From Kiritimatiellia bacterium (lineage in GTDB: Bacteria; Verrucomicrobiota; Kiritimatiellia; RFP12; UBA1067), in contig JAQUEX010000012.1 in assembly GCA_028684935.1 (NCBI GenBank), positions 1 through 36,216 on the forward strand: a stretch of 36,216 bases of DNA. The letters are read 5' to 3'. The notes below the pieces were generated by a model. It was given only the letters and a program-made list of their open reading frames with translations, ran no database searches and was not told the DNA's origin. This document shows, one piece after another, positions 19,664 to 33,786 of the stretch; the stretch's first letter is position 1; the number at the start of each line of letters is the position of its first letter. The translations under genes were made by a program, and so were the position numbers.

Positions 19664-20641
19664 TTAGCCGATGACGCCGGCCGCGTGCATTTTGGCAACC
19701 GACGCTTTCATCTTATCGAGGCCGGTGCGCGCGGTTTCGGGCGCAGGCCGCCGCCAGTAAGCGGCGTTGAAAAGCTCGACAGAGAGCCAGACGCTCGCAC
19801 GGTTTTCCGCGAAGGACGAAAGGATCTCCGTGAGGGGCGCGATGCCGTCGCCCGGCCAGACGCGGTCGCTGTCCTTGAGGGCCTCGCGCGCCGGCTGGGC
19901 GGGGTAGTCGTTCATGTGGAAACAGTGCGTCGCGCAGCGGCCGAGCAGCCGCAGTGATGCCGCCTCGCTGCCGCCGCGGTACATGTGGTAGGCGTCCGCC
20001 AGCACGCAGGCGTCGGGATGCGCGGCGCGCGCGGCGACATAGAGGCACTGGTCGACGCGCGCCAGATTCGCGGCGGCGCCCCAGAACTCAAGCTGCGGAA
20101 TCACGCCCATGTCACGACCCAGTTCCAGCACGGCGCGGTAACGCTCGGCGGCGCGGTCGAGGTCGAGCTTGACGTCGGCTTTGTAGACGCCGGCGGGCGA
20201 CGCCGCGATATGGGTGCCGCCGAGCTGCGCGACGAGGTCCATGTCCCGTTTCATCTGCTCCATGCCCTTGGCGCGCGCGGTGTCGTCGTCCACGGCCCAT
20301 GCCGCGAAGCCGATCGCGCTGATCACCGACAGTCCGGCGTCGGCACACTGCCGCTTCAGCGCGCTGAGCGGGGTTCCGCCGGCGGCGGCCTTGGCGATGT
20401 CCTCGACCCACGGTTCGATGCCGGTGTAGCCGGCCTGGGCGGTCAGGACGATCTGGTCCGCGAGCGGCAGCTTGTAGCCGCGGAGAGTGGCGGTGTTAAG
20501 CGCGTAGCGGAAGGCACCGCCCGCAGCCGGGACAGCGGAACCCGGCGCGGACCAGGCTGACGTGGGCGTCCCGACCGCCGTCCGGCCTTTCCAAATAGGC
20601 CGTTTTTCCTGCTTGAAACCCGTGTATCCCCTGTGTAACAT
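19664..20641 (-). CDS. Sugar-phosphate isomerase/epimerase (xylose-isomerase-like TIM barrel), N-terminus doubtful
   Basis: The TIM-barrel domain begins at FRYALNTATLRGYKLPLADQ (~residues 44-63) and runs to the end, with GYTGIEPWVED, GGTHIAASPAG, PQLEFWG, ADAYHMYRGG, HCFHMNDYP and VWLSVELFN, the expected metal-binding Glu/His/Asp positions of the AP-endonuclease-2 superfamily. Related enzymes interconvert small sugars or inositol derivatives. The first ~43 residues do not look like a normal start: the ATG at 20641 has no ribosome-binding site, while a strong AAAGGAG with an ATG at 20660 leads into another frame that ends at 20496. Secreted relatives carry a Tat leader here, which is missing. 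The gene may be frameshifted or its 5' end replaced. Confidence 0.7.
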   Translation of the reverse strand: MLHRGYTGFKQEKRPIWKGRTAVGTPTSAWSAPGSAVPAAGGAFRYALNTATLRGYKLPLADQIVLTAQAGYTGIEPWVEDIAKAAAGGTPLSALKRQCADAGLSVISAIGFAAWAVDDDTARAKGMEQMKRDMDLVAQLGGTHIAASPAGVYKADVKLDLDRAAERYRAVLELGRDMGVIPQLEFWGAAANLARVDQCLYVAARAAHPDACVLADAYHMYRGGSEAASLRLLGRCATHCFHMNDYPAQPAREALKDSDRVWPGDGIAPLTEILSSFAENRASVWLSVELFNAAYWRRPAPETARTGLDKMKASVAKMHAAGVIG

Positions 20642-21093: not shown

Positions 21094-22431
21094 CTAATCC
21101 CCAATGCGCAGTCCAAAAAGCGCATTGGGCCAGTCTGGAAAATAGTCGCCGACTCCGGTAACACGACGCACACGTCCCGTTTCTTCCCATGCCAGAAGGA
21201 AGGGGGACTGCGAGAACTCGCCGAACACGATTTTGGTTCGTTGTGCCGTGTCCGTATCGAACCCAAATTCTTGAGGATAAAACGCCGGTGCCAACAGCAC
21301 CACGTTTGATGCCGACGCGGTGATATTCCTCACCCGCTCGGGCGTCATTCCTTGCGGCTGCCCCGTCATAACGACCGTCACTCCTGACAGCTTTCCGGGC
21401 AGATACTCAAGCGACCTTACGACCCCAATGCTGAAATCGGACGGACGGTCAACAAGATAGCCGCGCAAGGTCTTTGCAAAACTCTCGCCGCCGAGGTCCT
21501 TTTCACCCGCAACCAGCCATGCTTTCGGCGTACCGGAACCTATAACGACTGAGTTGCGGCCGCCTCTGACGCGGGAGTCCGCGAACCGTCCCTTTGTCCA
21601 CAAGCCGACACACAACAGCACAGACAGCCCAATAAGTCCCGACCAGCTTCTTAATAAAGGCCATTGCCGCAACCGCACACGGGACACAAGCACGGCAAGT
21701 AATGCCGCCGTCGGGATACCCCACAGCCACGGCGATTCCGCAACGGAACTGAAAAAAGAAGCTGCTCCAAAAGCCGTCCATATCCCTAGCGGCACCGCCG
21801 CCCACCGCGTCGCCCCCCCCGCCCCGCAGAGCAGGATCACGGCCAACCACCCGGACAGGTAAAAGCCCCGCAATAGCCAACCGAATTCGACCAGCCATGT
21901 CAGATGGCTGTTCACAAGCGTGCGGTATCGTTCCGTGCGATCTAAGGGCTGATACCACTGCATGTAGGCTTTTCCCGCATTCCCCGCGCCCCATCCTTTG
22001 GGAGCATCCGCCATCATCGCCGGTGCGGCCTTCCACAGCGTCATGCGGTTTGTGATCGAGCGATCCTCCCGCAACACGCCTTGGGCATAGCGGCGGTGCG
22101 CATCCATCCGGACCGCACAGACCGCAATCGCCGTCACGGCAAGCAGAACCGCCAGCGCCTTCCGCCGGGGCCACGGTCGTGGCGCAAAGGCAACCAGCAC
22201 AGTCAAGCCCGCACAGCACGCCGCCAGTCCGCCCCGGGAAAACGTCAGGACAAGGCAACAGCCCAGCACCGTGAAAAGGAACGCGGAAAGCCAAAACAAC
22301 CGTTGCCGGATATAGGCCAATACCCACACCGCCACCATCCCTTCGGCAATCAGCGCGGCGGTCTTGTTCGGGTTTCCTAACCCCCAGTCCAACCGTCTCA
22401 CTCCCTCAAAAAAGAACTCGGCTCCATCCAT
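21094..22431 (-). CDS. O-antigen-ligase-like membrane protein with C-terminal soluble domain
   Basis: 445 residues. About eight hydrophobic spans in residues ~25-265 with LTFSRGGLAACCAG (the SRG signature seen in Wzy/WaaL-type O-antigen ligases and polymerases) and a periplasmic-type loop with RSITNRMTLWKAAP, GWGAGNAGKAYMQWYQP and LVNSHLTWLVEFG that matches the conserved loop of that superfamily. The usual first spans are lacking, so the protein may be shortened at its N-terminus. Residues ~285-445 form a soluble domain beginning RNSVVIGSGTPKAWLVAGE that I do not recognise; it resembles an alpha/beta hydrolase-like Rossmann fold. These ligases attach glycans to lipid or protein acceptors; here the acceptor could be a product of the operon, which is inference. 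It is the last gene of the cluster, 9 bp after the preceding gene. Confidence 0.7.
   Translation of the reverse strand: MDGAEFFFEGVRRLDWGLGNPNKTAALIAEGMVAVWVLAYIRQRLFWLSAFLFTVLGCCLVLTFSRGGLAACCAGLTVLVAFAPRPWPRRKALAVLLAVTAIAVCAVRMDAHRRYAQGVLREDRSITNRMTLWKAAPAMMADAPKGWGAGNAGKAYMQWYQPLDRTERYRTLVNSHLTWLVEFGWLLRGFYLSGWLAVILLCGAGGATRWAAVPLGIWTAFGAASFFSSVAESPWLWGIPTAALLAVLVSRVRLRQWPLLRSWSGLIGLSVLLCVGLWTKGRFADSRVRGGRNSVVIGSGTPKAWLVAGEKDLGGESFAKTLRGYLVDRPSDFSIGVVRSLEYLPGKLSGVTVVMTGQPQGMTPERVRNITASASNVVLLAPAFYPQEFGFDTDTAQRTKIVFGEFSQSPFLLAWEETGRVRRVTGVGDYFPDWPNALFGLRIGD
21100..21129 (-). terminator. Inverted repeat at the 3' end of the cluster
   Basis: CCCAATGCGC (21100-21109) and GCGCATTGGG (21120-21129) form a perfect 10-bp stem with a 10-nt loop, located inside the last codons of the O-antigen-ligase-like gene. 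No U-run follows on either strand. It may end the long leftward transcript, or mark the island border next to guaA. Confidence 0.4.
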
Positions 22432-22440
22432 ATGCCCATC

Positions 22441-23937
22441 TCACTTCTCGAGTTTCCAGACGTCGGCCAAATTTTGGGTCGGAAGATCGACACGGAAAGC
22501 CGCCGGAACCCGCTCCGACTTGTCGGACGGAAAGACCTCCTGATTCACCACGTCGCCGACACATGCCGGAGACCTGAACGACTCCGGCCATGGGCGTTCC
22601 TGATTTACGCTACCCGCTTTCTTAACCCCAGAATGCATACCTTTCATGGCATCCTCGAACGCCGACTTTTCATCCCGCAGGCTCAGCGCGTATTCAAAAA
22701 AGGCCAGCCCCAACCTTTCAGCAACGGGATGCCCCTGATGTCCCAACCCAGGAATCGCCTTATAGACGATCGGATACCCCATCTCCCTACATGCAGAAAG
22801 GAAATGGAGGGAGCGCTCATAGCCGCTCTCGTTCTCCCCCGTCGTCAGGCACCACAGCACTTGGCTTGCCTCGCGCGTCGGCTTGTCGAAACTGCTTGGA
22901 ATATGCACATGCACAGCCAGGAAATACTGGGGCTTCCGCAAGGCCAGCCTTTGCGCGTACTGCGCCGAACCGGACACGCCCCACAGCAGAAACCCCTTCT
23001 CCGGCATCCCGTATTTTCGCGACAGATCCTCGACGCCACGCGCCCACGCCGCCGCCACCTCGTCGAACGTCTCGTCCATCCGCTTACCAACCGCTTTGCT
23101 CTGCTCGTCCCAATTCGTCCGCGGATCCCAAAGCGAACGGGAACCCCAGCAAAGGATCACCAGCTTATGTTTTTCTGCGAAACGCAGGACGCTCCCCACG
23201 TCATCTTTGGCCTCCACCACCTGCAGGCGGCGCTTGATCTCATCCACGCTGTTGGCCAGAAGGCACATCGCCAACACCCCGTCCGCCTCTGAAACGTCCG
23301 TCATGCCGAGGGGCGGCCGCATCAACAGGGTGATCTGCGGCTGTTTGGCGCTGCGCGTTTTGACCACATATTGTATGACCGGGTCCGTAGCCGCCTCTCG
23401 CCGCACCCGCTCGGGCTTGTCCACCTGAGAGCGTTCCGGGAAGTCGTACGCCGCGACCAGTCCGCTCGGATACGCTGCCGCCGCGGCGGCCAGTTTGTCC
23501 CCGAAAACCGCGACGGCTTTCCATCCCTGCGAGTTGACGACCTTCTTGGGCACCGCGAAATAGAGCGTCTCGTCCTTGTTTTTCTCAAAAAAGACCGGCA
23601 TGGGGTAGGGCTTCGTGGAACCGCGCACGACCGGAAACGGCTTGTCGCTCTTCTCCGTCAGTTTTCCAGACCTGTCGTAGTAGTAGACTTTGGCATAAAC
23701 CGTTTCGGACCGCGCGCGCTCACCCGTTCTGACCGTCACCTCCAGATACGGGAGAAAGACCCGTTCTTTGGTCTTGTCCGGTCTTACGGTCTCCTGATAG
23801 AGGAAGTCTCCCTTCCGAGACGGCTGATCGACAAACTTGACCGAATGGATTTTGAAAAAATCTATCCCCTGAGCCCATGCTGAGCTGGCGAATGCTAAAG
23901 CCAAAAAAACGATGCCGTATGTCAAAAGCCGTTTCAT
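22441..23937 (-). CDS. Secreted alpha/beta-hydrolase-fold protein
   Basis: 498 residues with a signal peptide (MKRLLTYGIVFLALAFASSA, cleavage after WAQ). Residues ~25-150 form a beta-rich N-terminal domain with conserved-looking RTGERARSETVYAKVYYYD. Residues ~200-450 resemble an alpha/beta hydrolase: GFLLWGVSGSAQYAQRLAL has the nucleophile elbow G-x-S-G-S and PGLGHQGHPVAERL provides the late catalytic His; GENESGYERS may hold the acid. It may hydrolyse an ester or a peptide; no substrate is indicated. Its ATG (23937) lies 1 nt after the preceding gene's stop, and the ligase-like gene follows 9 bp later, so it is tightly embedded in the operon. Confidence 0.7.
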   Translation of the reverse strand: MKRLLTYGIVFLALAFASSAWAQGIDFFKIHSVKFVDQPSRKGDFLYQETVRPDKTKERVFLPYLEVTVRTGERARSETVYAKVYYYDRSGKLTEKSDKPFPVVRGSTKPYPMPVFFEKNKDETLYFAVPKKVVNSQGWKAVAVFGDKLAAAAAAYPSGLVAAYDFPERSQVDKPERVRREAATDPVIQYVVKTRSAKQPQITLLMRPPLGMTDVSEADGVLAMCLLANSVDEIKRRLQVVEAKDDVGSVLRFAEKHKLVILCWGSRSLWDPRTNWDEQSKAVGKRMDETFDEVAAAWARGVEDLSRKYGMPEKGFLLWGVSGSAQYAQRLALRKPQYFLAVHVHIPSSFDKPTREASQVLWCLTTGENESGYERSLHFLSACREMGYPIVYKAIPGLGHQGHPVAERLGLAFFEYALSLRDEKSAFEDAMKGMHSGVKKAGSVNQERPWPESFRSPACVGDVVNQEVFPSDKSERVPAAFRVDLPTQNLADVWKLEK

Positions 23938-23938
23938 G

Positions 23939-24832
23939 TCATGGGGTCGTCCGCACCTTTACGCCTGTTTCAAAACTTTGCGTCTTCGCGCCTTGGCGGG
24001 AAACCTTTCCCAATGACTGCCATGCGGAAAAAAGTCCCGCATCCGGCAGCCACCCCGTTCCCGTCGGATGAATCTTTCTGATCTTCTCATCCGCAATCGC
24101 CCGCGTCTCGACATCGACCCAAAGCCCGGTTTTCCCGCCGCCTTCCGCCATCCTGCCCAGAACGGCCGAGAAATAGTCTCTCACGAACGCCTCGACCCGG
24201 CCATCCGGCGAGTGCTCGTTGCCCGGGACGCCGATCCAGAGCCACGGCTTTCCCGCCGCACGGCCCTGCTTGAAATAGCTGAGTGAAGCTCCCAGACGCT
24301 CGTCCTCCTCGCCGCACGCGACGATCCCGGTCGGCATGACCTCAGACGGTTTGGGCTCATCCCACCAACCGGCTGAATAGGCGCACCACGCGGCTACGCG
24401 CTCCGGCTTCCATTCCGCAAAACGCGACACGAAATGCGCCCCGCCCGAAAAGCCATAGAGCAGAAACGGCAGGTTTCGCACAAAGAGCCGGTCCAGCGCG
24501 GCCAGCAAGAGCCGACCCGATCCGTTGCCCGCGTAATAATAGCCACTGCCGTTATGCAGGTCATCCAATTCCGAAGCGAAAGAGACCCCAACCAGTGCCA
24601 AATTCCGCTCTTTGGCGAACGCCTGCCACGCCGGAGAGGCCGCAAGTGCCTCTCCGTTTCCGTTGCATCCCGGCGTAAGCACAAGCACCGCCGAAACATT
24701 GCTTACGGACACAACATACAATTCGGCACGCGTCATACCGGGCGCAGGAGTGAGCACATGCCGGATCGGCGTTTCGGCCCGCAAGATCCCGCACACCGCC
24801 ATCCCGATCACCCAGCAAAATGCCCGCCTCAT
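23939..24832 (-). CDS. Secreted esterase-like alpha/beta hydrolase
   Basis: 297 residues from the ATG at 24832, which overlaps the preceding gene's TGA by four bases; an upstream ATG would lie far inside that gene. After a signal peptide (MRRAFCWVIGMAVCGILRA) comes PAPGMTRAELYVVSVSN, then VLVLTPGCNGNG (likely oxyanion region), LLYGFSGGAHFV (G-F-S-G-G nucleophile elbow) and PGNEHSPDG (late His). It resembles PHB-depolymerase/feruloyl-esterase-like hydrolases. The extreme C-terminus (SRQGAKTQSF...) is low in conservation signals. The N-terminal third is repeated as a broken copy at 28036-28248 in the same position relative to a CarboxypepD_reg gene, evidence that the gene pair was once duplicated. 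Confidence 0.75.
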   Translation of the reverse strand: MRRAFCWVIGMAVCGILRAETPIRHVLTPAPGMTRAELYVVSVSNVSAVLVLTPGCNGNGEALAASPAWQAFAKERNLALVGVSFASELDDLHNGSGYYYAGNGSGRLLLAALDRLFVRNLPFLLYGFSGGAHFVSRFAEWKPERVAAWCAYSAGWWDEPKPSEVMPTGIVACGEEDERLGASLSYFKQGRAAGKPWLWIGVPGNEHSPDGRVEAFVRDYFSAVLGRMAEGGGKTGLWVDVETRAIADEKIRKIHPTGTGWLPDAGLFSAWQSLGKVSRQGAKTQSFETGVKVRTTP

Positions 24833-25422
24833 TTCACAGCCTTGTCGGCCTTCTTGAGCACGATGTCTGCTATGATCTTGTTGCCTTTGCATGGCTTTAC
24901 GCACATAGGTTCCGCAGCCGCAGGACCAAAGGGCCTATAAAAAAACGACTCGATCCGCGCCAACATGAGGTGTCGCCGCGTCATTAGCGGTACTTTGTAT
25001 TCATAGTTGATGCCTTTTGCCGCAACACATATACGCACATCAACGGATTTAGGATAAGCACTATGATCCGTCTCCCCCGCCAGATATAGCGCGATCGAAC
25101 CCGGCCCACAGGGAAAGAACGGCCCCACTTCATAAACCCCATCGTTATCTGACATTGAAGAACAAACAAAAACACTACTCGAATTGTCAGTCGCTCTGAC
25201 ATGTGCCCCCGTAACCGGGTTCCCTTCTCCATCCGTTATGCGACCTCTGACATACACCCGGTCCGGGAGAGTCTTCACCGCCACGATATAAGAGACAATG
25301 GGTAAACAAACAACCAAACAGGCCAACAGGAACAACCGCGAAAGCATCCACCGCACTGTTTTTGGGGCGATGTACCACCGGTATAACCGGCGGAAAAATG
25401 AATCTTGATAATCCAATCTCAT
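24829..25422 (-). CDS. Membrane-anchored carboxypeptidase-regulatory-like protein
   Basis: 197 residues. A single membrane span (~28-50, LFLLACLVVCLPIVSYIVAV) is followed by a carboxypeptidase-regulatory-like beta-sandwich: VYVRGRITDGEGNPVTGAHV, then SDNDGVYEVGPF. The C-terminus GNKIIADIVLKKADK repeats a tail found at the end of the two other CarboxypepD_reg proteins in this cluster (25598 and 28252) and of a remnant at 25440. The fold is a binding or spacer module, not an enzyme, usually at the cell surface or in the periplasm. Start ATG 25422 has GGAG upstream. Overlaps the esterase gene by four bases (ATGA). Confidence 0.75.
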   Translation of the reverse strand: MRLDYQDSFFRRLYRWYIAPKTVRWMLSRLFLLACLVVCLPIVSYIVAVKTLPDRVYVRGRITDGEGNPVTGAHVRATDNSSSVFVCSSMSDNDGVYEVGPFFPCGPGSIALYLAGETDHSAYPKSVDVRICVAAKGINYEYKVPLMTRRHLMLARIESFFYRPFGPAAAEPMCVKPCKGNKIIADIVLKKADKAVK

Positions 25423-25439
25423 AGCCCCACCCTCTCCTT

Positions 25440-25559
25440 CTATTCTGCCGTTTTCCTGCTTTTCTCGAGTACGATATCCACTCCAATGATCACATTACCT
25501 TTGCTCTTTGGCAGATTGGCATCTTTCTCAACCTTGTCAGCGTGTCCTTCCTTCCGCGT
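25440..25559 (-). pseudogene. Remnant: C-terminal tail of a CarboxypepD_reg protein
   Basis: Read leftwards, ~39 codons end in DANLPKSKGNVIIGVDIVLE followed by KSRKTAE and TAG at 25440-25442. This matches the tails of the intact family members (FPKSEGNVIFVPDIVLKK and LPKSSGNTIFAPDIVIKK) closely, but a stop precedes it at 25560-25562 and no body of the protein is present. It fills most of the 175-bp gap between two intact genes and shows that at least one more copy existed. Confidence 0.7.
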
Positions 25560-25597
25560 TCACGCACGTCCTGTCCAATCCTGCCGGATTAAAAACG

Positions 25598-26527
25598 TCA
25601 CTCCGTCTTCTTTAGCACGATGTCCGGCACGAAAATCACGTTGCCTTCACTCTTAGGGAATGAAAGTTCTTTCCGTTCGGAAAGGTCTTTCCCCATTGTG
25701 CGACTCAAGATACCATTCGCAATTATATTCATCCGCCGCGCCGGTTCCAGTTGTTCATCGGTCACAAGGGCAACCACGAGGGATTCTTTCGGATAGGCGT
25801 ACCCGTGCTTATTAACGCTCACCACAAAGGCCCCTGGCACATGCAGAGACTTTTCGTCCGTCAAATACCAAGCCACTTTGAGCCAATCCGCCGGAACAAC
25901 ATCGTTGATCTCATACCGACCCTCGTTATCGGTGACCGTTCGCCGCTCGAATTCCGAAGTTTCTGCCCCCTCAGGCCAGATGAGTACACTGGCATATGGA
26001 AGCCCTTTTCCCTGTTCGTCCACCACCCGTCCTTTCATTGTTATCTGATCATTTCGTAATTGCAGCCAAATGTCCTTCGTTCCCGAAAAGAGGGTTATTT
26101 CAGTTCTCGCGGTGGCCGTGCGGCAGACACCGCGAACCCCGGTTGGCATGTCGGGTTTCACTGCGCACATGGTGTACCGTCCCGGCGGAAGATTTTCAAA
26201 CCGGAAGAATCCATCCGGGTTACTCACGGCCGTCTTTTGGACTCCCATCCCTTCAAGTTGGACTTTCTGTCCTCCGGCCTTACGCAGAGCGATACCATTC
26301 GTGCTGTTGATGGTTTCCACCAAGTTTGTAATGCTGTCGATTTTCATCGCCTCCAGCTTGTCAAGAAACGCATGAACGTCACGTTCAACAATCGTCCCTG
26401 TGATACTCACACTCGCATGTTTTTCAGAAACAGTTTTCTTTTGAATTGGATTTGCCTGAATGTCGCAAATCGGCACCATGCAAAGCGCCAAGAACCAGTT
26501 TCTTATTGTTTTCAGTCGTGTGCTCAT
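25598..26527 (-). CDS. Secreted protein with two carboxypeptidase-regulatory-like domains
   Basis: 309 residues with a signal peptide (~1-25). Domain 1 (~40-150) contains KVQLEGMGVQKTAVSNPDGF and FENLPPGRYTMCAVKP; domain 2 (~160-240) contains MKGRVVDEQGKGLPYASV and VTDNEGRYEINDV, both standard CarboxypepD_reg/Cna-B-like signatures. The end FPKSEGNVIFVPDIVLKKTE is the tail shared by the family in this cluster. Such domains act as beta-sandwich spacers or binding modules outside the cell; no catalytic residues are seen. GGAG precedes the ATG at 26527 by 7 nt. It lies directly downstream of cysteine-rich protein 1 (29-bp gap), as its paralogue lies downstream of cysteine-rich protein 2. Confidence 0.8.
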   Translation of the reverse strand: MSTRLKTIRNWFLALCMVPICDIQANPIQKKTVSEKHASVSITGTIVERDVHAFLDKLEAMKIDSITNLVETINSTNGIALRKAGGQKVQLEGMGVQKTAVSNPDGFFRFENLPPGRYTMCAVKPDMPTGVRGVCRTATARTEITLFSGTKDIWLQLRNDQITMKGRVVDEQGKGLPYASVLIWPEGAETSEFERRTVTDNEGRYEINDVVPADWLKVAWYLTDEKSLHVPGAFVVSVNKHGYAYPKESLVVALVTDEQLEPARRMNIIANGILSRTMGKDLSERKELSFPKSEGNVIFVPDIVLKKTE

Positions 26528-26556
26528 GATAGACTCCGGTCGTTAAGTTTCATTAT

Positions 26557-27705
26557 TCATTCCGCTGGTGGCGTCGAGTCCAGAGGAAAAACAGTACATG
26601 CGTCAGAATCAGGGTTCCAGCTTTCCTGATCGCCTCCCGAACATCCGCCACCCGGGCATTCGTCTTCTGGCGGCAACCCGTTAGGGCATTTATCCTCCGT
26701 TCTTCCCCCTCCTGGACAATCGTCCTTTTCCGGCGAACCGTCGGGGCATTCATCGAAAGCATCGGTGCCGCCAGGGCAATAGTCGTCGTCGTTTGGAACT
26801 CCCGCTTCACAGGTGTCGACCGCCGAAGATCCGCCTGGGCATGAGTCACCCAAACCATCTTGTTCTACTTGCCCCTGCCCATTACAAACATCTTGTTCCG
26901 GAGTGCCATCGATACACTGGTCCGAACCCGTGCTTTGACCGGGGCCATCATTGGGGCTTGTATCACAAAAGTCGTCCCCGCCAGCCCCCTCAGGATGATT
27001 TTGTCCATTAATACAGGTGTCATCGTCTGTAAGTGTGCATTCATCTTGCGATTCACCGTTGACCTCATGGCAATCATTCTCGTCCCCGGTCCCTATAAGC
27101 CAAGGAATTGTCCGTGGCGGGCAGTCATCTCCATCGGCAACCTTTCCCGTGTCGCATTCGTCCTGCTCCTCACCGTTGGTCATATGGCCACCGCCGAAAC
27201 ATTTGTCCCCTTGAGCAATCGTCCCATTCGGCGGACAGTAATCCATTGATTTCTGCCCGTTCGGACAATTGTCGCGTGGGGAGTTTGCATCGCAAACATC
27301 GTCAGCGGTGGTTCCCGATTCGCATTGGTCTGAGTCCAATTTTTCAGCCTCGTTGCAAACGTCGGCTGTTTTGAGCCCGGAATTGCAGACATCTTCGTTC
27401 CTGTCCCCGTTTGAAGGACAATAGTCTTGTGGCGGATTCTCTCCCGGACATTTATCCGGATCAAGAAAGCTACACACATCCTCCGCATCCACTCCTCCCG
27501 GACAATCATCCGTAATTCCCGCAACGGGATCGCAGGTTTCAGGCGACGGAAGAGTTGTGGCCAGTCCATCGCCGCCCAGCAGCTTGAAATGCGCAAAAAC
27601 TCCCAACCCGACCATCTTCGCGATCCCGCCCGCGAAATGGCGACGCGACACATCGGCCTTTTTCAATCCTGTCACATTTGATTTGCTGTTTATTCCACAT
27701 TTCAT
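26557..27705 (-). CDS. D-x-C repeat cysteine-rich protein 1 (putative modified-peptide substrate)
   Basis: 382 residues, not recognised as a known family. Residues 1-~50 form a leader with SRRHF at 20-24 and a weakly hydrophobic run after it (AGGIAKMVGLGVFAHF), a Tat-like signal. From ~58 on there are about 28 units of 8-17 residues, most often like CPGGxPxED-x-C; all but three Cys of this region have Asp at position -2 (e.g. EDVC, PDKC, QDYC, SDQC, DDVC, KDDC). Exceptions are ETC, NDC and GGGC. Asp, Gly and Pro dominate; basic residues are few, so the protein is very acidic. Upstream is a broken copy of the SPASM maturase; the intact maturase lies 2.6 kb away in the same transcript direction. 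Modification by that enzyme is inference. Confidence 0.8.
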   Translation of the reverse strand: MKCGINSKSNVTGLKKADVSRRHFAGGIAKMVGLGVFAHFKLLGGDGLATTLPSPETCDPVAGITDDCPGGVDAEDVCSFLDPDKCPGENPPQDYCPSNGDRNEDVCNSGLKTADVCNEAEKLDSDQCESGTTADDVCDANSPRDNCPNGQKSMDYCPPNGTIAQGDKCFGGGHMTNGEEQDECDTGKVADGDDCPPRTIPWLIGTGDENDCHEVNGESQDECTLTDDDTCINGQNHPEGAGGDDFCDTSPNDGPGQSTGSDQCIDGTPEQDVCNGQGQVEQDGLGDSCPGGSSAVDTCEAGVPNDDDYCPGGTDAFDECPDGSPEKDDCPGGGRTEDKCPNGLPPEDECPGGGCSGGDQESWNPDSDACTVFPLDSTPPAE

Positions 27706-27975
27706 AATACACCGCCCTTTCCTTCTATTTGCTGCCCATGCGCACCTTCCGTTCTTCCGCCTTCAACCGCGTATAAAACGCCACCGCTTTCTTGATGTGT
27801 TTCTCCATCTGCTCACAGTGGCGGTCGCTGAATTTGAAGGAGCCATCCGCCTGTGCGATCTCCCACGGGCACGGCCCCTTGCACTGCGCCCACAACCAGC
27901 ACGATTCGCATTTAACTGCCACGCACGCACGATAGTCGCGCCAGAACTTTTTGCACCGTCCGTAATCCGGTCCAT
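27626..27975. repeat. 350-bp perfect direct repeat, copy 1
   Basis: Identical base for base to 30258-30607 (offset 2632). It covers the first ~27 codons of cysteine-rich protein 1, the 19-bp gap with its ribosome-binding site, and the 3' end of a maturase fragment. Single mismatches begin just outside both ends. Identity includes non-coding and third-codon positions, so it reflects recent duplication or gene conversion. Confidence 0.9.
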
Positions 27976-28039
27976 CCTCGATTGTTCCTATTCTCCAGGC
28001 TTCCATTCCCACAAACCTGTGGCACGGGTACAGCATGCC
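27725..28039 (-). pseudogene. Broken copy of the radical SAM maturase: SPASM C-terminus only
   Basis: About 104 codons equal to the last part of the maturase at 30357-31844, from DGMLYPCHRFVG to the KVRMGSK end, with only a few changes (all near its 5' end). The radical SAM core is absent. It is joined at 28036-28040 to the 5' part of an esterase gene in a different frame, with a short shared TGGGG at the junction, so no sensible fusion protein is made. Its 3' end still delivers the ribosome-binding site region of cysteine-rich gene 1. Confidence 0.85.
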
Positions 28040-28248
28040 ATCGCCCCACTGTCCCCGTTGCATCCCGGCGCAAGTACCAGCACCGCCGATGGGTTCTGGT
28101 GCATCACCACAACCAGCTCTGCCCGCGTCATTCCCGGAACAGGAACAAACGTATACCGGACAGGAACAAACGTATACCGGACGGGCGGAACAGCGCACAA
28201 GCGCCAAGCCATGAATACAACCGCCGCCGCACCAATACCTTTTCGCAT
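28036..28248 (-). pseudogene. Broken copy of the esterase gene: signal peptide and N-terminus only
   Basis: The ATG at 28248, 3 bp after the CarboxypepD_reg stop, starts a signal peptide and then PVPGMTRAELVVVMHQNPSA and VLVLAPGCNGD, clearly matching the start of the intact esterase at 24832 (PAPGMTRAELYVVSVSN..., VLVLTPGCNGNG). Similarity stops at the junction with the maturase fragment. The Ser/His active-site part is missing. It contains a 21-bp tandem duplication at 28139-28180. Confidence 0.8.
28139..28180. repeat. 21-bp tandem duplication
   Basis: Two perfect adjacent 21-bp copies (28139-28159 and 28160-28180), each beginning ACAGGAACAAACG, encode a doubled VRYTFVP in the esterase fragment. 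The intact esterase has a single equivalent. It is probably slippage in a gene no longer under selection. Confidence 0.9.
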
Positions 28249-28251
28249 CTC

Positions 28252-29196
28252 TCACTCTGCCGTCTTTTTGATCACGATATCTGGCGCAAAAATTGTATTT
28301 CCTGATGATTTTGGAAGCTCATCCTTCGTCTTATTGCTGAGGTGTTGCGAACCTTTGCCCCATCGGGCTTGCACGGCGTTCATCGCGCCATGAAACCTTT
28401 GGGCCTGCTCTAACAAACTTTTTGAAACCAATGGCATCCTCGGACAAATCCCCTTTCCAGAGTCATTTTCAGCGTATATCTCGAAGTAGAAAGGGTTTTG
28501 CCCCACCGTTGGATCTCCCCCGTTCAACCAGCCTCCGGCTGCCCAGACGGACGGTTGCGGAATATCTTTTAGATCGTAGTTTCCGTCCTTGTCTGTTACA
28601 GCCTTGAATGTCCGCTCGGCTCCCTGTTCCGGTCGCGGGACACCATATCCCGTCACTCTGGCTCCCGCAACGCTCTTGCCCTCGGCATCGACAACCTTGC
28701 CTTTGACCGCCATACGCTGTCTTTCACCCAATGTCATTTCAAGATGCGCATGCCGAGTTCCAAGTTTGACTTTTTCCTTCGCCGTGAACGAAACCCCTCC
28801 GCGCCCGAGAATATCCCGTTTTTTTTCAACCGAGACTTCGTAGTCACCTGGCTGGAGATTTCCAAACTCAAAATTTCCCCATTCATCCGTCCGGGTTTCC
28901 AATTTCATTCCTTGTCCCAATAACCGTACCACAGCGTTTGACGACCATGTTCCAAAATGCGCGAACACAGCGCGTTCTAATGCTGCCGGCGTATTAATCC
29001 GTTTCAACTGCTCGGCGGCCGCCTCCGTGAATTCGACCTCGCATTCCGTCACACTCCCGGATAGGCCCAACCTAATCGTCTGATTTTTATCTGGGACACG
29101 AGCAGAACCGTCCACAGCCCGACAATGACTCAACAGACCGATTGCCAGAAAAACCACATATCCCAATCGCTTCCATGATTTGTGTTGCCTTTTCAC
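28252..29196 (-). CDS. Secreted protein with two carboxypeptidase-regulatory-like domains (paralogue)
   Basis: 314 residues from a GTG at 29196 preceded by GAAAGG. Signal peptide ~1-28. Domain 1 (~45-150) contains LETRTDEWGNFEFGNLQPGD and YEVSVEKK; domain 2 (~160-245) contains VKGKVVDAEGKSVAGARVTG and VTDKDGNYDLKDIP. The tail LPKSSGNTIFAPDIVIKK matches those of the proteins at 25598 and 24829. Overall plan equals the 25598 protein, but the sequences are well diverged. It sits 28 bp after cysteine-rich gene 2, mirroring the other copy, so the cysteine-rich/CarboxypepD_reg pair is a unit. A role in binding, exporting or displaying the modified protein is plausible but unproven. Confidence 0.8.
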   Translation of the reverse strand: MKRQHKSWKRLGYVVFLAIGLLSHCRAVDGSARVPDKNQTIRLGLSGSVTECEVEFTEAAAEQLKRINTPAALERAVFAHFGTWSSNAVVRLLGQGMKLETRTDEWGNFEFGNLQPGDYEVSVEKKRDILGRGGVSFTAKEKVKLGTRHAHLEMTLGERQRMAVKGKVVDAEGKSVAGARVTGYGVPRPEQGAERTFKAVTDKDGNYDLKDIPQPSVWAAGGWLNGGDPTVGQNPFYFEIYAENDSGKGICPRMPLVSKSLLEQAQRFHGAMNAVQARWGKGSQHLSNKTKDELPKSSGNTIFAPDIVIKKTAE

Positions 29197-29224
29197 GTTA
29201 ACTACCTTTCAAGAATCTCTGCCG

Positions 29225-30337
29225 TTATTCACCCAAATCCGGTGGCCTTGACACGCATGTGTCATGCGGAATGATATTGCACTCATCCGGGGCAATATAT
29301 CCTTCTTCTTGGTCACCGCCTGCGCACCCCTGCGCGGATGTGCATTCATCTTCCGGAGGATCCCCCGTCGGACATTCGTCTTGCGCAGGTTGCCCTCCAG
29401 GACATTCGTCGACATCTCCCCATTCCGGGTGACACTCATCGTTGTTAGCCTCCATACCAACACAAACATCATCACTGGTGTTCGTACAATGGTCTACCGC
29501 CTGCCCCCCCCCTGGACAAGCATCGTAAGCACCATGGTCCGTGCTATTCGAAAGGCACCGATCTGCATCATCTGTTCCATCGCCACAATCATCACTCGCG
29601 ACCCAAGACCCCTCACACCAATCGTCACCTCCATTTTCTCCACGTCCAGCATTGGTGCCATTAGGGCAAGAGTCATCATCAAAAACATCAGGAAATGTTG
29701 CACATTCATCAGGGTGATCATGTTTACAGTCATCTTCCAATGAATGTGATCCTCGGCTACATTGGTCACCACCACTTGGGCCTGACCCTTCTGGATCACA
29801 AGTGTCCAACCCATTAGGAGTGGGATCACCTCCGGGACATTGATCCCCCATGGCATCGGTACCATTCGGCGGACAATTATCTGTGTCATTCTGACCAGTC
29901 GGGCACTGGTCAGCGGGAGGAGTATTGTGAGAACACTCATCATCGGCAGGAAGTCCCGATTGGCATTGATCCGATAAGGGGTCGGACGCCTCATTGCAAA
30001 CATCCTCCGGAGCGGGACCACCTTGGCACACGTCCTCTTCCCTATCCCCTCCCGATAGACATATATCTTCAGGTGGCTTCGCCCCCGGGCATTTGTCTGG
30101 ATCGGCCCCGGGCATGCAATTATCTTCTTCGTCTCGTCCTCCGGGACAGGCATCCTCAGTTGAGGACATCCCCCAATTCACCATATTTTCCGCTTTTAGC
30201 TCTCTTCCCAGTAGTGTGAAATGCGAAAAAACGCCCAAGCCGAGAACCCGCGCGATTCCGCCCGCGAAATGGCGACGCGACACATCGGCCTTTTTCAATC
30301 CTGTCACATTTGATTTGCTGTTTATTCCACATTTCAT
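29225..30337 (-). CDS. D-x-C repeat cysteine-rich protein 2 (putative modified-peptide substrate)
   Basis: 370 residues. Residues 1-29 are identical to cysteine-rich protein 1, including Tat-like SRRHF (20-24). From ~62 on I count 28 D-x-C units with spacings of 8-17 residues (commonest 10): EDAC, EDNC, PDKC, EDIC, EDVC and so on to HDTC. The one exception in the repeat region is QGC near the end, matching the GGGC exception in protein 1. The x residue is free (A, N, K, I, V, Q, E, T, D, W, R, H). The first six or so and the last few units align with protein 1, while the middle differs in sequence and spacing. No cofactor-binding family (metallothionein, EGF, ferredoxin) fits. It is 19 bp downstream of the intact maturase gene with a GAAGGAAAGGGCGG ribosome-binding region. 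Confidence 0.85.
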   Translation of the reverse strand: MKCGINSKSNVTGLKKADVSRRHFAGGIARVLGLGVFSHFTLLGRELKAENMVNWGMSSTEDACPGGRDEEDNCMPGADPDKCPGAKPPEDICLSGGDREEDVCQGGPAPEDVCNEASDPLSDQCQSGLPADDECSHNTPPADQCPTGQNDTDNCPPNGTDAMGDQCPGGDPTPNGLDTCDPEGSGPSGGDQCSRGSHSLEDDCKHDHPDECATFPDVFDDDSCPNGTNAGRGENGGDDWCEGSWVASDDCGDGTDDADRCLSNSTDHGAYDACPGGGQAVDHCTNTSDDVCVGMEANNDECHPEWGDVDECPGGQPAQDECPTGDPPEDECTSAQGCAGGDQEEGYIAPDECNIIPHDTCVSRPPDLGE

Positions 30338-30607
30338 AATACACCGCCCTTTCCTTCTATTTGCTGCCCATGCGCACCTTCCGTTCTTCCGCCTTCAACC
30401 GCGTATAAAACGCCACCGCTTTCTTGATGTGTTTCTCCATCTGCTCACAGTGGCGGTCGCTGAATTTGAAGGAGCCATCCGCCTGTGCGATCTCCCACGG
30501 GCACGGCCCCTTGCACTGCGCCCACAACCAGCACGATTCGCATTTAACTGCCACGCACGCACGATAGTCGCGCCAGAACTTTTTGCACCGTCCGTAATCC
30601 GGTCCAT
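30258..30607. repeat. 350-bp perfect direct repeat, copy 2
   Basis: The partner of 27626-27975. It covers the start of cysteine-rich gene 2, the intergenic ribosome-binding region and the last ~83 codons of the intact maturase gene. Confidence 0.9.
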
Positions 30608-31844
30608 TCCCGATTGTTCCTATCCTCCATGCTTCCATCCCAACAAACCTGTGGCACGGGTACAGCATGCCGTCGGCCCCAACGGTCGTCGTTCCCCGGC
30701 ACGCCCCGCATTTGAACGGACTTACCTTGCGGGCCGTCGTTTTAACGCTTTTCTCCTGTTCTTCCACGAAATAAGAATAGGGATAATACTTAGGCCTCTC
30801 TCCGTGCGCCAGTTTGTCCAGCATCCACGGGACAATCTCCTCATTCGCCTGACGCTCGCACGATGCGAAATCGTCGTCGGTGAAATCCACCGGGCTTTTG
30901 TGAACCGGGTTTACTACCCGTCCCAGAACAATGCGCGTGAACCCGAACTCCTCAAAATAACGGACCAAATCCAGCATCCGAGGAACCGGATGTGCCATGG
31001 TGCAACGTACCGTCACGGCACGTCGCCGGGCCATGAGTCGCCTTATGCCAGTTGCAGCGGCGTCAAAGGACCCTTCCCCTCCCCTAGTCGGACACTGCGC
31101 GTTATGGATTTCCGGCGGCCCGTCGAGGCTCACCATCAGACCGAAATTGTATCGCTTGATGACCGTGATGACATCGTCGTCCAGCAGAGTCCCGTTCGTC
31201 GTCATGGAGTAAAAGACTTTCTTTCCATGAAGCTTCCCCAATTTCTGACTGTATTCGACGGCGAACATGAACACGGGTTTATTCAATAGCGGTTCGCCCC
31301 CGAAAAAGGTGATGCTGACCTGCTCGCTCTTTCCACTCACGGCGAAAAGCCAGTTAATCGCCTGCCGCGCCACCGTCTCGCTCATCAGACCTTGGTTCGG
31401 CAGTATGTCACGGCAGGTCCCGCAGTAGCAGTAGGTACAGGCCAGATTACAGGTCTCTGCCAACGCAAGTTCCAGCTTGTTCCACGGCGTGGCGTCGTAC
31501 CGATGCCGCAGCTCTTTTTCAAGACGGTCCGAACTCACAGAATAATCGGGCCGTTTGAAAAGCCCGTTTCTTGCCAGAGCGCGGACTTCGCTCGCCACGC
31601 TCTTAACGGTTGATTCCGGGAACTCTCCCTGTCCGAGCATGACGCCCTTGGCATCGTCAACGGAATGGCTCTGGCAGAGTTCCAGAAAACGTAGCGTCGG
31701 CGGATCGATGCGGATGAAACGACAAGACGTAGTATCGTAGACAAAGCTATCTTCCCCAGCTTCAAAGACACGATATGGTGGTGGATTACAGACCGTTGAG
31801 GGCTGCGTTCTGGGTTTTGAATTTGTACTCATGTTCGTCATCAT
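30357..31844 (-). CDS. Radical SAM/SPASM peptide maturase
   Basis: 495 residues from ATG 31844, preferred over GTG 31853 because GAGGTG (31856-31851) lies 6 nt before it. Residues ~15-115 resemble the N-terminal recognition region of peptide maturases (PYRVFEAGEDSFVYD, FIRIDPPTLRFLEL). The radical SAM core carries CNLACTYC (Cys ~132, 136, 139: C-x3-C-x2-C, binding the SAM-cleaving cluster), FFGGEPLL and a LMVSLDGP strand. The SPASM region (~375-480) has KCGAC, MLYPCHRFVG, GRC, then CESCWLWAQCKGPCPW and RHC, enough for two auxiliary iron-sulfur clusters. YPCH(R/Q)FVG is a feature I know from SCIFF- and QhpD-type thioether-forming maturases. The likely substrates are the D-x-C proteins downstream. 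The gene starts 5 bp after the stop of the YD-like gene. Confidence 0.9.
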   Translation of the reverse strand: MMTNMSTNSKPRTQPSTVCNPPPYRVFEAGEDSFVYDTTSCRFIRIDPPTLRFLELCQSHSVDDAKGVMLGQGEFPESTVKSVASEVRALARNGLFKRPDYSVSSDRLEKELRHRYDATPWNKLELALAETCNLACTYCYCGTCRDILPNQGLMSETVARQAINWLFAVSGKSEQVSITFFGGEPLLNKPVFMFAVEYSQKLGKLHGKKVFYSMTTNGTLLDDDVITVIKRYNFGLMVSLDGPPEIHNAQCPTRGGEGSFDAAATGIRRLMARRRAVTVRCTMAHPVPRMLDLVRYFEEFGFTRIVLGRVVNPVHKSPVDFTDDDFASCERQANEEIVPWMLDKLAHGERPKYYPYSYFVEEQEKSVKTTARKVSPFKCGACRGTTTVGADGMLYPCHRFVGMEAWRIGTIGNGPDYGRCKKFWRDYRACVAVKCESCWLWAQCKGPCPWEIAQADGSFKFSDRHCEQMEKHIKKAVAFYTRLKAEERKVRMGSK

Positions 31845-31849
31845 ATCTG

Positions 31850-33136
31850 TCACCTCAAATACGTATGCGCCAACGCCTCGCCTTCCGCCGTGTAAACACT
31901 GAGCAACTTGCCATTATTCACCAGGGCGGCCTGCGTACCGTTCGCCCCGTACACGAAGAACATGTCATCCTTCGCGTTTTTGAACCGAAACATTTGCCCT
32001 TTCTCGTTGTAGAAATACTCGCCGGTCGTGACACGCTTACCGTCCGTGACCTCTTCTGTTTTACGCAGAAGCCCGCGCAGTCTTCCAGACGTGAAGCGCG
32101 TTTCAATCTTCCGGATGCCGTCACCCCCTTCAACCGTCAGAACACCCTTTGCCCGGTCGTCATGCCAGAACGCCTTCTGGCCCTTGCCATTCACGCGCCC
32201 GATGGTCGCCGTATCCCCTTCTGTCTTAGCGGACATCACCGAATACTGCCACCCTCCGTCTCGCACGATCAGCTTGGAAGCCGCACTCCAACCGATCTCC
32301 TTTTCTGGCAGACGCAAAAATTCGTTTGTGCCCCGCACCTCATACCGAAATGTTCTCTCCGTCCCGTCCGTCAGCATCAGCCGACCCAGACTCAGCACAT
32401 TCCCGCAAGTAACAGGTTTCCCTTTGACAACCCTCACCTCGGGGCGTTGCGCCAATTCAAAAGAAACTCGGTTACCTCCCGACCACTCGAAACCTGTCAC
32501 AGCACCTTTTTTCTTGTCAACCACAGTACGCAGAAAATCCTGCCCGTTACGTTGCACCCGGTTCACAACATTCCCGTCGTACAAAAACGTAAACTCTCCG
32601 TCAGGGATAGTCATCTTTACCAGTTGCCCACGACGAAAGACCAGTTCGGGATGGACATGGTCGGCACCGTAATTCCTGCAAGAACAACGAACCGTGATGA
32701 CATCCCCCCTGATTTTTCCGCCCCAAGGGCGCTTGGAGAGCAGAAGGGATGTGTCTTTTTTGTCACGCACGAACGCCCTCCGGAACCCATCGGGCTGAAA
32801 CACCCAGAACACGGTTTCCGATGTCTGCACGATCCTGGATTCAAAAAACGGCACGTTCCATCCATAACCCGCCATCGGCGAACGATTCGCGCTGTCCGAC
32901 CGGAAATATGCGTAAATAGCCAGCGGTCTTCCCGGCCGACCCCTTTTTTCGAACTCGGCCAGTTTTTCAATTACAAGGGCATGGCCTTTTTCGTCCACAC
33001 CCTCAAACGGTCCTTTAAGCTGCCAAAGTTCATGCCAGACGATCCCACCAGCGGATAACTGACGGGGAACAAAAAGAATCCCCGCCGCCAGAAAACAGGC
33101 GGTCAACACCGCCCGGCTATGGAAAAGACATCTCAC
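31850..33136 (-). CDS. Secreted RHS/YD-repeat-like protein
   Basis: 428 residues from a GTG at 33136, the first gene after the promoter; signal peptide ~1-29 (VLTACFLAAGILFVPRQLSA). SPMAGYGWNVPFFESRIV resembles the 'GxGW' start of RHS/YD proteins, and FLYDGNVVNRVQ, FRYEVRG, GEYFYNEKGQMFRFKNAKDD and FFVYGANGTQAALV are YD-like beta hairpins. It is short for an RHS protein (usually over 1000 residues) and lacks the hyperconserved core and toxin tip, so a toxin role is not supported. It may form a small beta shell or binding domain outside the cytoplasm. Its stop is 5 bp before the maturase ATG. Confidence 0.7.
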   Translation of the reverse strand: MRCLFHSRAVLTACFLAAGILFVPRQLSAGGIVWHELWQLKGPFEGVDEKGHALVIEKLAEFEKRGRPGRPLAIYAYFRSDSANRSPMAGYGWNVPFFESRIVQTSETVFWVFQPDGFRRAFVRDKKDTSLLLSKRPWGGKIRGDVITVRCSCRNYGADHVHPELVFRRGQLVKMTIPDGEFTFLYDGNVVNRVQRNGQDFLRTVVDKKKGAVTGFEWSGGNRVSFELAQRPEVRVVKGKPVTCGNVLSLGRLMLTDGTERTFRYEVRGTNEFLRLPEKEIGWSAASKLIVRDGGWQYSVMSAKTEGDTATIGRVNGKGQKAFWHDDRAKGVLTVEGGDGIRKIETRFTSGRLRGLLRKTEEVTDGKRVTTGEYFYNEKGQMFRFKNAKDDMFFVYGANGTQAALVNNGKLLSVYTAEGEALAHTYLR

Positions 33137-33494
33137 TTCCCGGCTATGCCCCTCGCAGAATCCCGAGCGTGTCAGAGAGTGCTGACAGAACGCATCAGGA
33201 TGCTCTTAACCCATGTTTATGGCATGTATTATACGGGGAGGGGTAGCAAAGTCAACGGCCTTTTTTATTATTTTTCCGTTTCGTCAGCACAGAATACGTC
33301 TCTGCCACGCTATGCGCGGAGATAAAGTACTCGCCCTTTTTAGTGGAGAGATTGCAAGACAATTCACTCTGGCATTCAATCCGCATTGCCGTGTATCATG
33401 GCGCTGTCGTGGAGCGTTCGTTTTGCAAAGGACGTGTGCGGATTGAACGCATGCCGATACGGCGCCTCTGAATTTGCGGGAGTTGGGGATCGTC
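33137..33494. other. Intergenic region between the island and the right flank
   Basis: 358 bp with the leftward operon promoter at 33228-33255 and an AT-rich patch (33261-33290). I see no RNA gene, no attachment-site repeat of the guaA end and no convincing rightward promoter; TATCAT near 33393 is a weak possibility. GC rises again towards 33490. Confidence 0.5.
33228..33255 (-). promoter_or_regulatory. Sigma-70 promoter of the D-x-C/radical SAM operon
   Basis: On the minus strand: TTGACT (33255-33250), 16-bp spacer, TATAAT (33233-33228), near consensus. Transcription would start about 33221, giving an ~85-nt leader before the GTG at 33136. Since the following genes are tightly spaced on one strand, this may drive the entire 12-kb cluster. 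Confidence 0.65.
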
Positions 33495-33584: not shown

Positions 33585-33786
33585 TTACGGCAAAAAGGCG
33601 GGCGAACGCTTGAATCTGTCGGGCGATCGCGATACGGACGGTTTTGCGGCGTGCGGCCGTGATCAGGCGCGCGAAACGAAGTATCAGGCGAGGCTTGCGC
33701 GTGAGCTTCGCGTCTACGGGGCGATGCGCGAGGGGCGCCACGTTTACGATGAGGAACAACGGACATGTGAGGAGGCGACACGATGA
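33568..33786 (+). CDS. Doubtful 72-codon ORF coupled to the dehydrogenase gene
   Basis: Formally starts at a TTG and encodes a charged, non-membrane sequence (DYGKKAGERLNLSGDRDTDG..., ELRVYGAMREGRHVYDEEQR). Its TGA overlaps the dehydrogenase ATG by the four-base ATGA pattern, which favours real translation. The start codon lacks a ribosome-binding site, so it might be the rest of the ORF at 33495. I do not recognise it. Confidence 0.3.
   Translation: MTSSLDYGKKAGERLNLSGDRDTDGFAACGRDQARETKYQARLARELRVYGAMREGRHVYDEEQRTCEEATR

Follow-up and report, generated by a model that had tools for sequence, protein, structure and literature searches.

What does a radical S-adenosylmethionine (SAM)/SPASM maturase make when it is encoded next to two large proteins whose cysteine and aspartate residues alternate some thirty times? 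The question is raised by a minus-strand gene cluster (33136 to 21094) in the window, i.e. the whole analysed stretch of 36,216 nucleotides of contig JAQUEX010000012.1 from a Kiritimatiellia bacterium. The answer that we favour, and hold to be fairly probable, is a secreted, heavily stapled acidic protein: about 25-30 thioether rings would be installed in the cytoplasm, followed by export through the twin-arginine translocation (Tat) pathway. We infer the thioether chemistry and the ring direction from sequence. Three genes are central to this proposal:

30357-31853, minus strand: MAT, radical SAM/SPASM maturase of 498 aa (Radical_SAM PF04055 and SPASM matches)
29225-30337, minus strand: DXC1, Tat-signal Cys/Asp repeat protein of 370 aa (29 core Cys, 28 D-x-C)
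26557-27705, minus strand: DXC2, second Tat-signal Cys/Asp repeat protein of 382 aa (29 core Cys, 26 D-x-C)

A preliminary description of this DNA had linked a radical SAM/SPASM enzyme to Cys-rich partners, and this holds, as MAT matches PF04055 (E 2.5e-15) as well as SPASM and lies adjacent to DXC1. The D-x-C repeat described in the two partners is also real: an Asp occupies position -2 of 28/29 core Cys residues in DXC1 and of 26/29 in DXC2, far above the counts obtained in 20,000 shuffles (4.6 and 4.7 on average and never more than 14 and 15, respectively). The proteins, which share 51% overall identity and have no matching family in Pfam or NCBIfam, were called ‘giant’; at 370 and 382 aa they are better termed large.

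Both proteins start with a Tat-type signal (SRRHF, of the SRRxF type), as had been proposed for the substrates of the enzyme, and TatC is encoded in the genome of the window, so that a twin-arginine signal and a genomic translocase are both present. In a related locus, L042, genes for an extracytoplasmic function (ECF) sigma factor, TatA, TatC and a FecR-domain protein all precede the maturase gene. From these signals we infer a Tat route for the D-x-C proteins. The Tat system generally transports folded proteins, and cytoplasmic stapling before export would fit this preference.

The nearest solved relative of MAT is CteB (5wgg, E 1.6e-52), and the alignment spans the N-terminal region through the SPASM domain. 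Within this full-length match the N-terminal region of MAT is alignable to the RiPP recognition element (RRE) region of CteB (RiPP, ribosomally synthesised and post-translationally modified peptide); there is no PqqD/RRE match in Pfam. For all 12 aligned maturases the best family models are QhpD, PapB, nif11-type and SCIFF, with QhpD and PapB scoring highest. MAT reaches 240.8 bits with the PapB model NF047865 (cut-off 340), and therefore it is not filed as PapB; the scores with the QhpD model TIGR03906 (199.6 bits, cut-off 453) and the SCIFF model TIGR03974 (190.5 bits, cut-off 425) are likewise too low, and membership in PapB, QhpD or SCIFF was rejected on these grounds. The Chloroflexota maturase of L055 obtains its highest family score with TIGR03906 (280.2 bits), still below 453.

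As SPASM enzymes are chemically diverse, and as sactipeptide maturase models match too, albeit more weakly, the modification might be a different one, e.g. a C-alpha sactionine or a link to other residues, and the Asp residues, which together with Glu make the window cores acidic (~16% Asp, ~8% Glu), might serve another purpose such as metal binding. We regard this as rather unlikely, since both best-matching characterised families use Asp/Glu acceptors and Cys and Asp alternate strictly over 2 to ~30 units. By homology and substrate pattern, Cys-to-Asp thioether formation is the best-supported chemistry for the clade of MAT.

Pairing of the maturase with Cys/Asp proteins across phyla

If the two D-x-C proteins are substrates, related maturases should keep similar neighbours. 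Among 115 genomes of the window's family, 12 others carry an orthologous maturase (45-54% identity; next best ~30%). The order YD-MAT-precursor-HYD1 is kept in 12/12 of these Kiritimatiellae-family loci, and WZY in 11/12 within the sequence covered (YD, HYD1 and WZY are accessory genes described below). The position of DXC is taken in them by a short, RiPP-like peptide of ~88-114 aa with a Tat-like N-terminus and 2-6 pairs of alternating Cys and Asp, written here as C-X(n)-D, e.g. ...NPCNGHGKADQCHGNGAKADTVEPPSACKSNARMGQDQTPPPPCRSARGNEDHTE (L034). The preliminary description had set the window proteins apart from short RiPP precursors; they are indeed large, but the equivalent operon of the Kiritimatiellae has short precursors, and therefore the large proteins look like expanded RiPP-type precursors. 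No copy was found in four other genomes of the window's own genus, so the gene set is patchy.

Wider relatives were sought by scanning 84,980 species genomes. Large D-x-C proteins lie directly 3' of close maturases in L041 (a groundwater verrucomicrobium, maturase identity 68%), L042 (‘Planctomycetes GWF2_42_9’) and L043 (Akkermansia muciniphila CSUN-56), the last being the one sampled genome of the Akkermansia family with a close copy. L041 and L043 retain the complete seven-gene set YD-MAT-DXC-CPD-HYD2-HYD1-WZY. D-x-C or D-x-x-C proteins also stand beside more distant maturases in Chloroflexota (L055-L058), Myxococcota (L059) and Planctomycetota (L060-L066, L071, L090), and beside the maturases of two other verrucomicrobial loci (L069, L140). 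As the maturase/Cys-Asp pair recurs in several phyla, the idea that the cluster is an oddity of a single assembly was rejected. Judging by these gene neighbourhoods, the core shared across phyla is MAT and the Cys/Asp protein alone, and the remaining genes make up an accessory set of the Verrucomicrobiota type.

Of 78 SPASM maturases placed in a tree, 35 (that of the window and 34 others) fall on one side of a branch with 99% support in the Shimodaira-Hasegawa-like approximate likelihood ratio test (SH-aLRT), and 43 on the other. A Cys/Asp-alternating partner, mostly with a Tat signal, adjoins 33 of the 35 clade maturases; the same screen found no Cys/Asp-alternating neighbour at the 43 loci outside the clade. 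All but one of the 33 positive loci were labelled before the tree was built (L075 was recognised afterwards). For short proteins the repeat statistics are modest (L060, p 0.02; L065, p 0.008), and the Kiritimatiellae peptides, individually non-significant, were assigned by reading. The maturase and the D-x-C protein thus behave as the conserved system that had been suggested, down to the recurrence of the whole operon in L041 and L043, and the opposite outcome, maturases regularly occurring without a D-x-C protein, was looked for and not observed inside the clade.

Other peptides were seen during this survey. Short Cys-/Asp-rich peptides of other kinds, without Tat signals, lie next to three SPASM enzymes from outside the clade (L092:5208-5522, L093:9125-9514, L070:12214-12489), and a short open reading frame (ORF) near one Chloroflexota pair (L058:11181-11423), ending MYEAPEIVYEGDLEIQAGSPLSLPEFPDLTELDW, resembles another RiPP precursor.

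This distribution bears on the simplest alternative, namely that the D-x-C proteins are disulfide-rich or metal-binding surface proteins that are merely adjacent to the maturase. Cys-rich acidic secreted repeat proteins do exist, and the stapling is a prediction from sequence; nevertheless, we consider such a coincidence very improbable in view of the pairing in 33/35 clade members across phyla, the Tat signals, the short RiPP-like forms occupying the same locus position and the odd numbers of core Cys residues. The latter (29, 29, 27, 31, 17, 13 and 19) are poorly suited to paired disulfides, which the maturase pairing also argues against.

Direction of the proposed rings

The repeat can be read in two directions. 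If the D-x-C unit itself were cross-linked, the staple would run from each Asp to a Cys at position +2 or +3 (D-x-C/D-x-x-C), giving tiny rings and variable loops. When five orthologous big proteins are compared, ~25 D-x-C pairs make up most of the invariant columns, and the loops vary; the spacing from Asp to the next Cys is fixed (122/138 at one residue in the big proteins) while that from Cys to Asp varies, which alone would suit such a cross-link. An acceptor upstream of its Cys also has a precedent in NxxcA, in which Asn20 is joined to Cys23 (PMC8326336).

The end units and the short precursors point the other way. An Asp follows the last Cys in 22/22 big precursors and 12/12 short ones, usually 0-6 residues from the C-terminus in the big precursors, Chloroflexota excepted. 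The first Cys, on the other hand, lacks a canonical upstream Asp in 10/22 big precursors, a deficit relative to the internal rate (P 0.002 for one spacing type and 3e-5 for the other); both values were calculated with relatedness ignored and are weakened by phylogenetic non-independence. Ten of the Kiritimatiellae-family peptides have the form C-D-C-D-C-D-C-D, in which C-X6-8-D is conserved, most Cys are preceded by variable residues and two of the three junctions have linkers of ~4-9 residues. L040 has a pair of C-X(n)-D units and lacks D-x-C altogether; the short precursors as a group retain the downstream Asp and mostly have no upstream one. The number n has a median of 7 in Verrucomicrobiota, Chloroflexota and the short forms, and of 12 in the Planctomycetota type. 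One member of the series was counted through an in-frame TGA: in the Myxococcota locus (L059:10699-11694) the D-x-C frame runs past this codon for six further units, a case of sequencing error, pseudogene or recoded stop.

Thus, the repeat stands as it was first described, but its role as the cross-linked unit was demoted by the end-unit and short-precursor tests, and we rate a staple within D-x-C as unlikely. D-x-C is probably the junction between forward C-X(n)-D rings, which account for both the big and the short series. An enzyme stepping along its substrate may be the reason why the linker in the big proteins is fixed at one residue.

Several further observations, besides the fixed Asp-to-Cys spacing, the NxxcA precedent and the weakened P values, weigh against a forward-stapled, Tat-exported product. 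The maturases checked in detail all fall below the curated equivalog cut-offs. A strict RR is missing in L043, L029 and L040, and the internal segment C332-C338 of DXC1 is usually Asp-less in the big proteins. Finally, the clade members L138 and L139 have Cys-rich partners without Cys/Asp alternation: in L138 (7437-9401) the precursor appears to be interrupted after its Tat-type N-terminus by an IS110-like transposase gene, and its core consists of CxxC repeats, and in L139 the partner is a short Cys-rich peptide.

According to the model of forward rings, MAT would bind the N-terminal leader of DXC1 or DXC2 in the cytoplasm via its RRE-like region and, using the radical-SAM cluster and the SPASM auxiliary clusters, would link the sulfur of every Cys to the next Asp downstream, at a carbon of its side chain (probably C-beta). 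The product would contain ~25-30 C-X(n)-D thioether rings, with n mostly 5-9 (median 7), separated by one-residue linkers, hence the sequence reads D-x-C. This rigid stapled protein would leave by Tat, and in Verrucomicrobiota the YD/RHS, CarboxypepD_reg, hydrolase and Wzy_C proteins would act on it, or together with it, at the envelope.

Operon layout, duplication and accessory genes

The cluster comprises 11 ORFs in the order YD-MAT-DXC1-CPD1-MATfrag-DXC2-CPD2-CPD3-HYD2-HYD1-WZY. In addition to the three described above, it contains the following features:

33228-33255, minus strand: candidate sigma-70-type promoter, TTGACT-N16-TATAAT, ~90 nt 5' of YD (agreement with the consensus at 11/12 positions)
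31850-33136, minus strand: YD, YD/RHS-fold protein of 428 aa, predicted secreted, first operon gene (RHS E 0.001 and fold)
30207-30679, no strand assigned: copy 2 of a 473-bp direct repeat (DXC1 start and MAT 3' end)
28252-29196, minus strand: CPD1, CarboxypepD_reg protein, predicted secreted (E 7.3e-14)
27725-28255, minus strand: MATfrag, broken duplicate of the MAT 3' end, covering roughly its final 100 codons and preceded by an unrelated N-terminus (91% identity over 117 aa)
27575-28047, no strand assigned: copy 1 of the 473-bp direct repeat (DXC2 start and MATfrag)
25598-26527, minus strand: CPD2, CarboxypepD_reg protein, predicted secreted (E 1e-16)
24829-25422, minus strand: CPD3, short membrane-anchored CarboxypepD_reg-like protein (E 4e-6, below cut-off; shared C-terminal DIVLKK-type tail)
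23939-24904, minus strand: HYD2, alpha/beta-hydrolase-like protein, predicted secreted (GFSGG motif; true start probably internal ATG 24832)
22441-23937, minus strand: HYD1, alpha/beta hydrolase, predicted secreted (fold; G-x-[SC] nucleophile motif; invariant His)
21094-22431, minus strand: WZY, Wzy_C (O-antigen ligase/polymerase family) membrane protein (E 1.4e-13; 51.3 bits, cut-off 31.7)

That these genes form an operon-like cluster, as previously suggested, is supported by their close spacing, by the 4-bp overlaps of YD with MAT (31850-31853) and of CPD3 with HYD2 (if the latter starts at the internal ATG) and by the promoter match before YD, which is the best of the region, although the total number of promoter matches in the region is not above chance level. 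The flanking genes (33783-35069, Gfo/Idh oxidoreductase-like, and 19664-20641, sugar-isomerase-like) are apparently unrelated to the operon.

The MATfrag ORF and the 473-bp repeat had been overlooked in the preliminary description. The two copies of the repeat are 95.8% identical, and because MATfrag sits in this repeat, which joins a DXC start to a MAT tail, the sequence indicates that the cluster carries a tandem duplication of a [MAT tail-DXC-CPD] unit. At the DNA level the leader and the MAT tail are ~96% identical while the D-x-C bodies have diverged, a conserved leader and variable core as in RiPP precursors; the near-identity could result from recent gene conversion.

Most of the accessory assignments made earlier were confirmed, some in modified form. 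The RHS/YD-like character of YD, weak by sequence (E 0.001), is supported by its AlphaFold model (predicted local distance difference test score, pLDDT, 82), for which Foldseek matches Rhs cores (E 1.8e-11), with no toxin part. Two of the three reported CarboxypepD_reg proteins (CPD1 and CPD2) score above the cut-off, while the third, CPD3, is the short membrane-anchored variant below it. As for the two secreted alpha/beta hydrolases, HYD1 is backed by its predicted fold and HYD2 by the GFSGG motif. The fold search places HYD1 closest to an esterase and to S9 peptidases, among them the lasso-peptide isopeptidase AtxE2, and does not choose between these classes; the nucleophile position is Ser in most homologues and Cys in two, and an extra N-terminal beta domain is present in the window, L041 and L043. 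The O-antigen-ligase-like protein has a Wzy_C domain scoring above the cut-off; WZY has few predicted membrane segments, a soluble C-terminal region and a conserved NSH-F-T-W-L-V-E region, whose Ser-His part resembles the catalytic-His region of O-antigen ligases. Sequence searches with HYD1 and WZY gave no solved-structure relatives.

Trimming of the precursor by the HYD proteins and glycan addition by WZY are plausible putative roles, whereas any account of the accessory proteins as a whole and of the final function of the product, including the envelope polymer or display protein put forward in the preliminary description, is speculative. Downstream of the verrucomicrobial maturase of L140 (5925-9316), a glycosyltransferase (Branch/GT25-like) and an unassigned protein are encoded, which hints at glycosylation partners.

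Comparison with known systems

No description of such a system was found in the open-licence literature searched, so its novelty is provisional. More tentatively than the stapling itself, and with somewhat less than even confidence, we suggest that the locus represents a widespread undescribed class of protein-scale thioether polymers, i.e. acidic ‘necklace’ proteins that are exported by Tat, carry as many as ~30 Cys-Asp macrocycles in a row through the action of a single, possibly processive maturase, share common descent with short RiPPs and serve as structural or envelope material, maybe attached to glycans. If this is true, radical-SAM stapling, whose products known so far are short peptides and a single small enzyme subunit, would also make protein-sized exported materials with tens of rings. 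The class would be testable in cultured bacteria, including human-gut Akkermansia, it might offer a potentially processive stapling enzyme, and its natural size series (2 to ~30 units in an equivalent operon) would be suitable for studying the transition from a peptide to a structural protein.

Two of the operon partners have relatives in other settings. YD shares its fold with Rhs/YD proteins but is a 428-aa single piece without a toxin domain, and WZY shares its domain with Wzy_C ligases but is predicted to cross the membrane only a few times and ends in a soluble tail; no link of either group to radical-SAM products was found in the literature searched.

With regard to the enzyme, CteB of the CteA/CteB system (thermocellin, a SCIFF peptide) is the closest solved relative and combines RRE, radical SAM and SPASM regions. 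SCIFF peptides, however, are short, with six Cys in ~45 residues, as against 29 core Cys within ~330 aa here.

QhpD introduces three Cys-to-Asp/Glu thioethers into QhpC, including Cys41-Asp49 (PMC7876137), and thus staples a protein subunit before export; the Cys41-Asp49 link is itself C-X7-D. QhpC has three links and the cysteine tryptophylquinone (CTQ) cofactor and leaves via an ABC transporter once its leader has been removed (PMC7876137), whereas Tat export and far more units are predicted for the window operon, among whose genes none encodes the QHNDH alpha/beta subunits, QhpE, QhpF or QhpG.

The PapA/PapB system (freyrasin, a ranthipeptide) shares the SPASM maturase, the C-X(n)-D logic and, as predicted for the window system, the multiple Cys-Asp/Cys-Glu thioethers; PapB forms six Cys-Asp links and works on in-line as well as nested Cys-X0-6-Asp units (PMC9413430). 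One relative of the window system, L064, carries C-X3-D repeats (CQQGDANC). A SPASM maturase beside a Cys-containing precursor, as in ranthipeptides, was found, and a thioether to the beta/gamma carbon would fit the C-X(n)-D pairing pattern. PapA is short and has six links, while the window system has up to ~30 units over ~330 residues, larger predicted rings, a Tat signal and another operon. On sequence grounds the system is therefore best filed near, but outside, PapB, QhpD and SCIFF, being set apart by substrate size, predicted Tat export, operon partners and a series running from 2 to 30 units.

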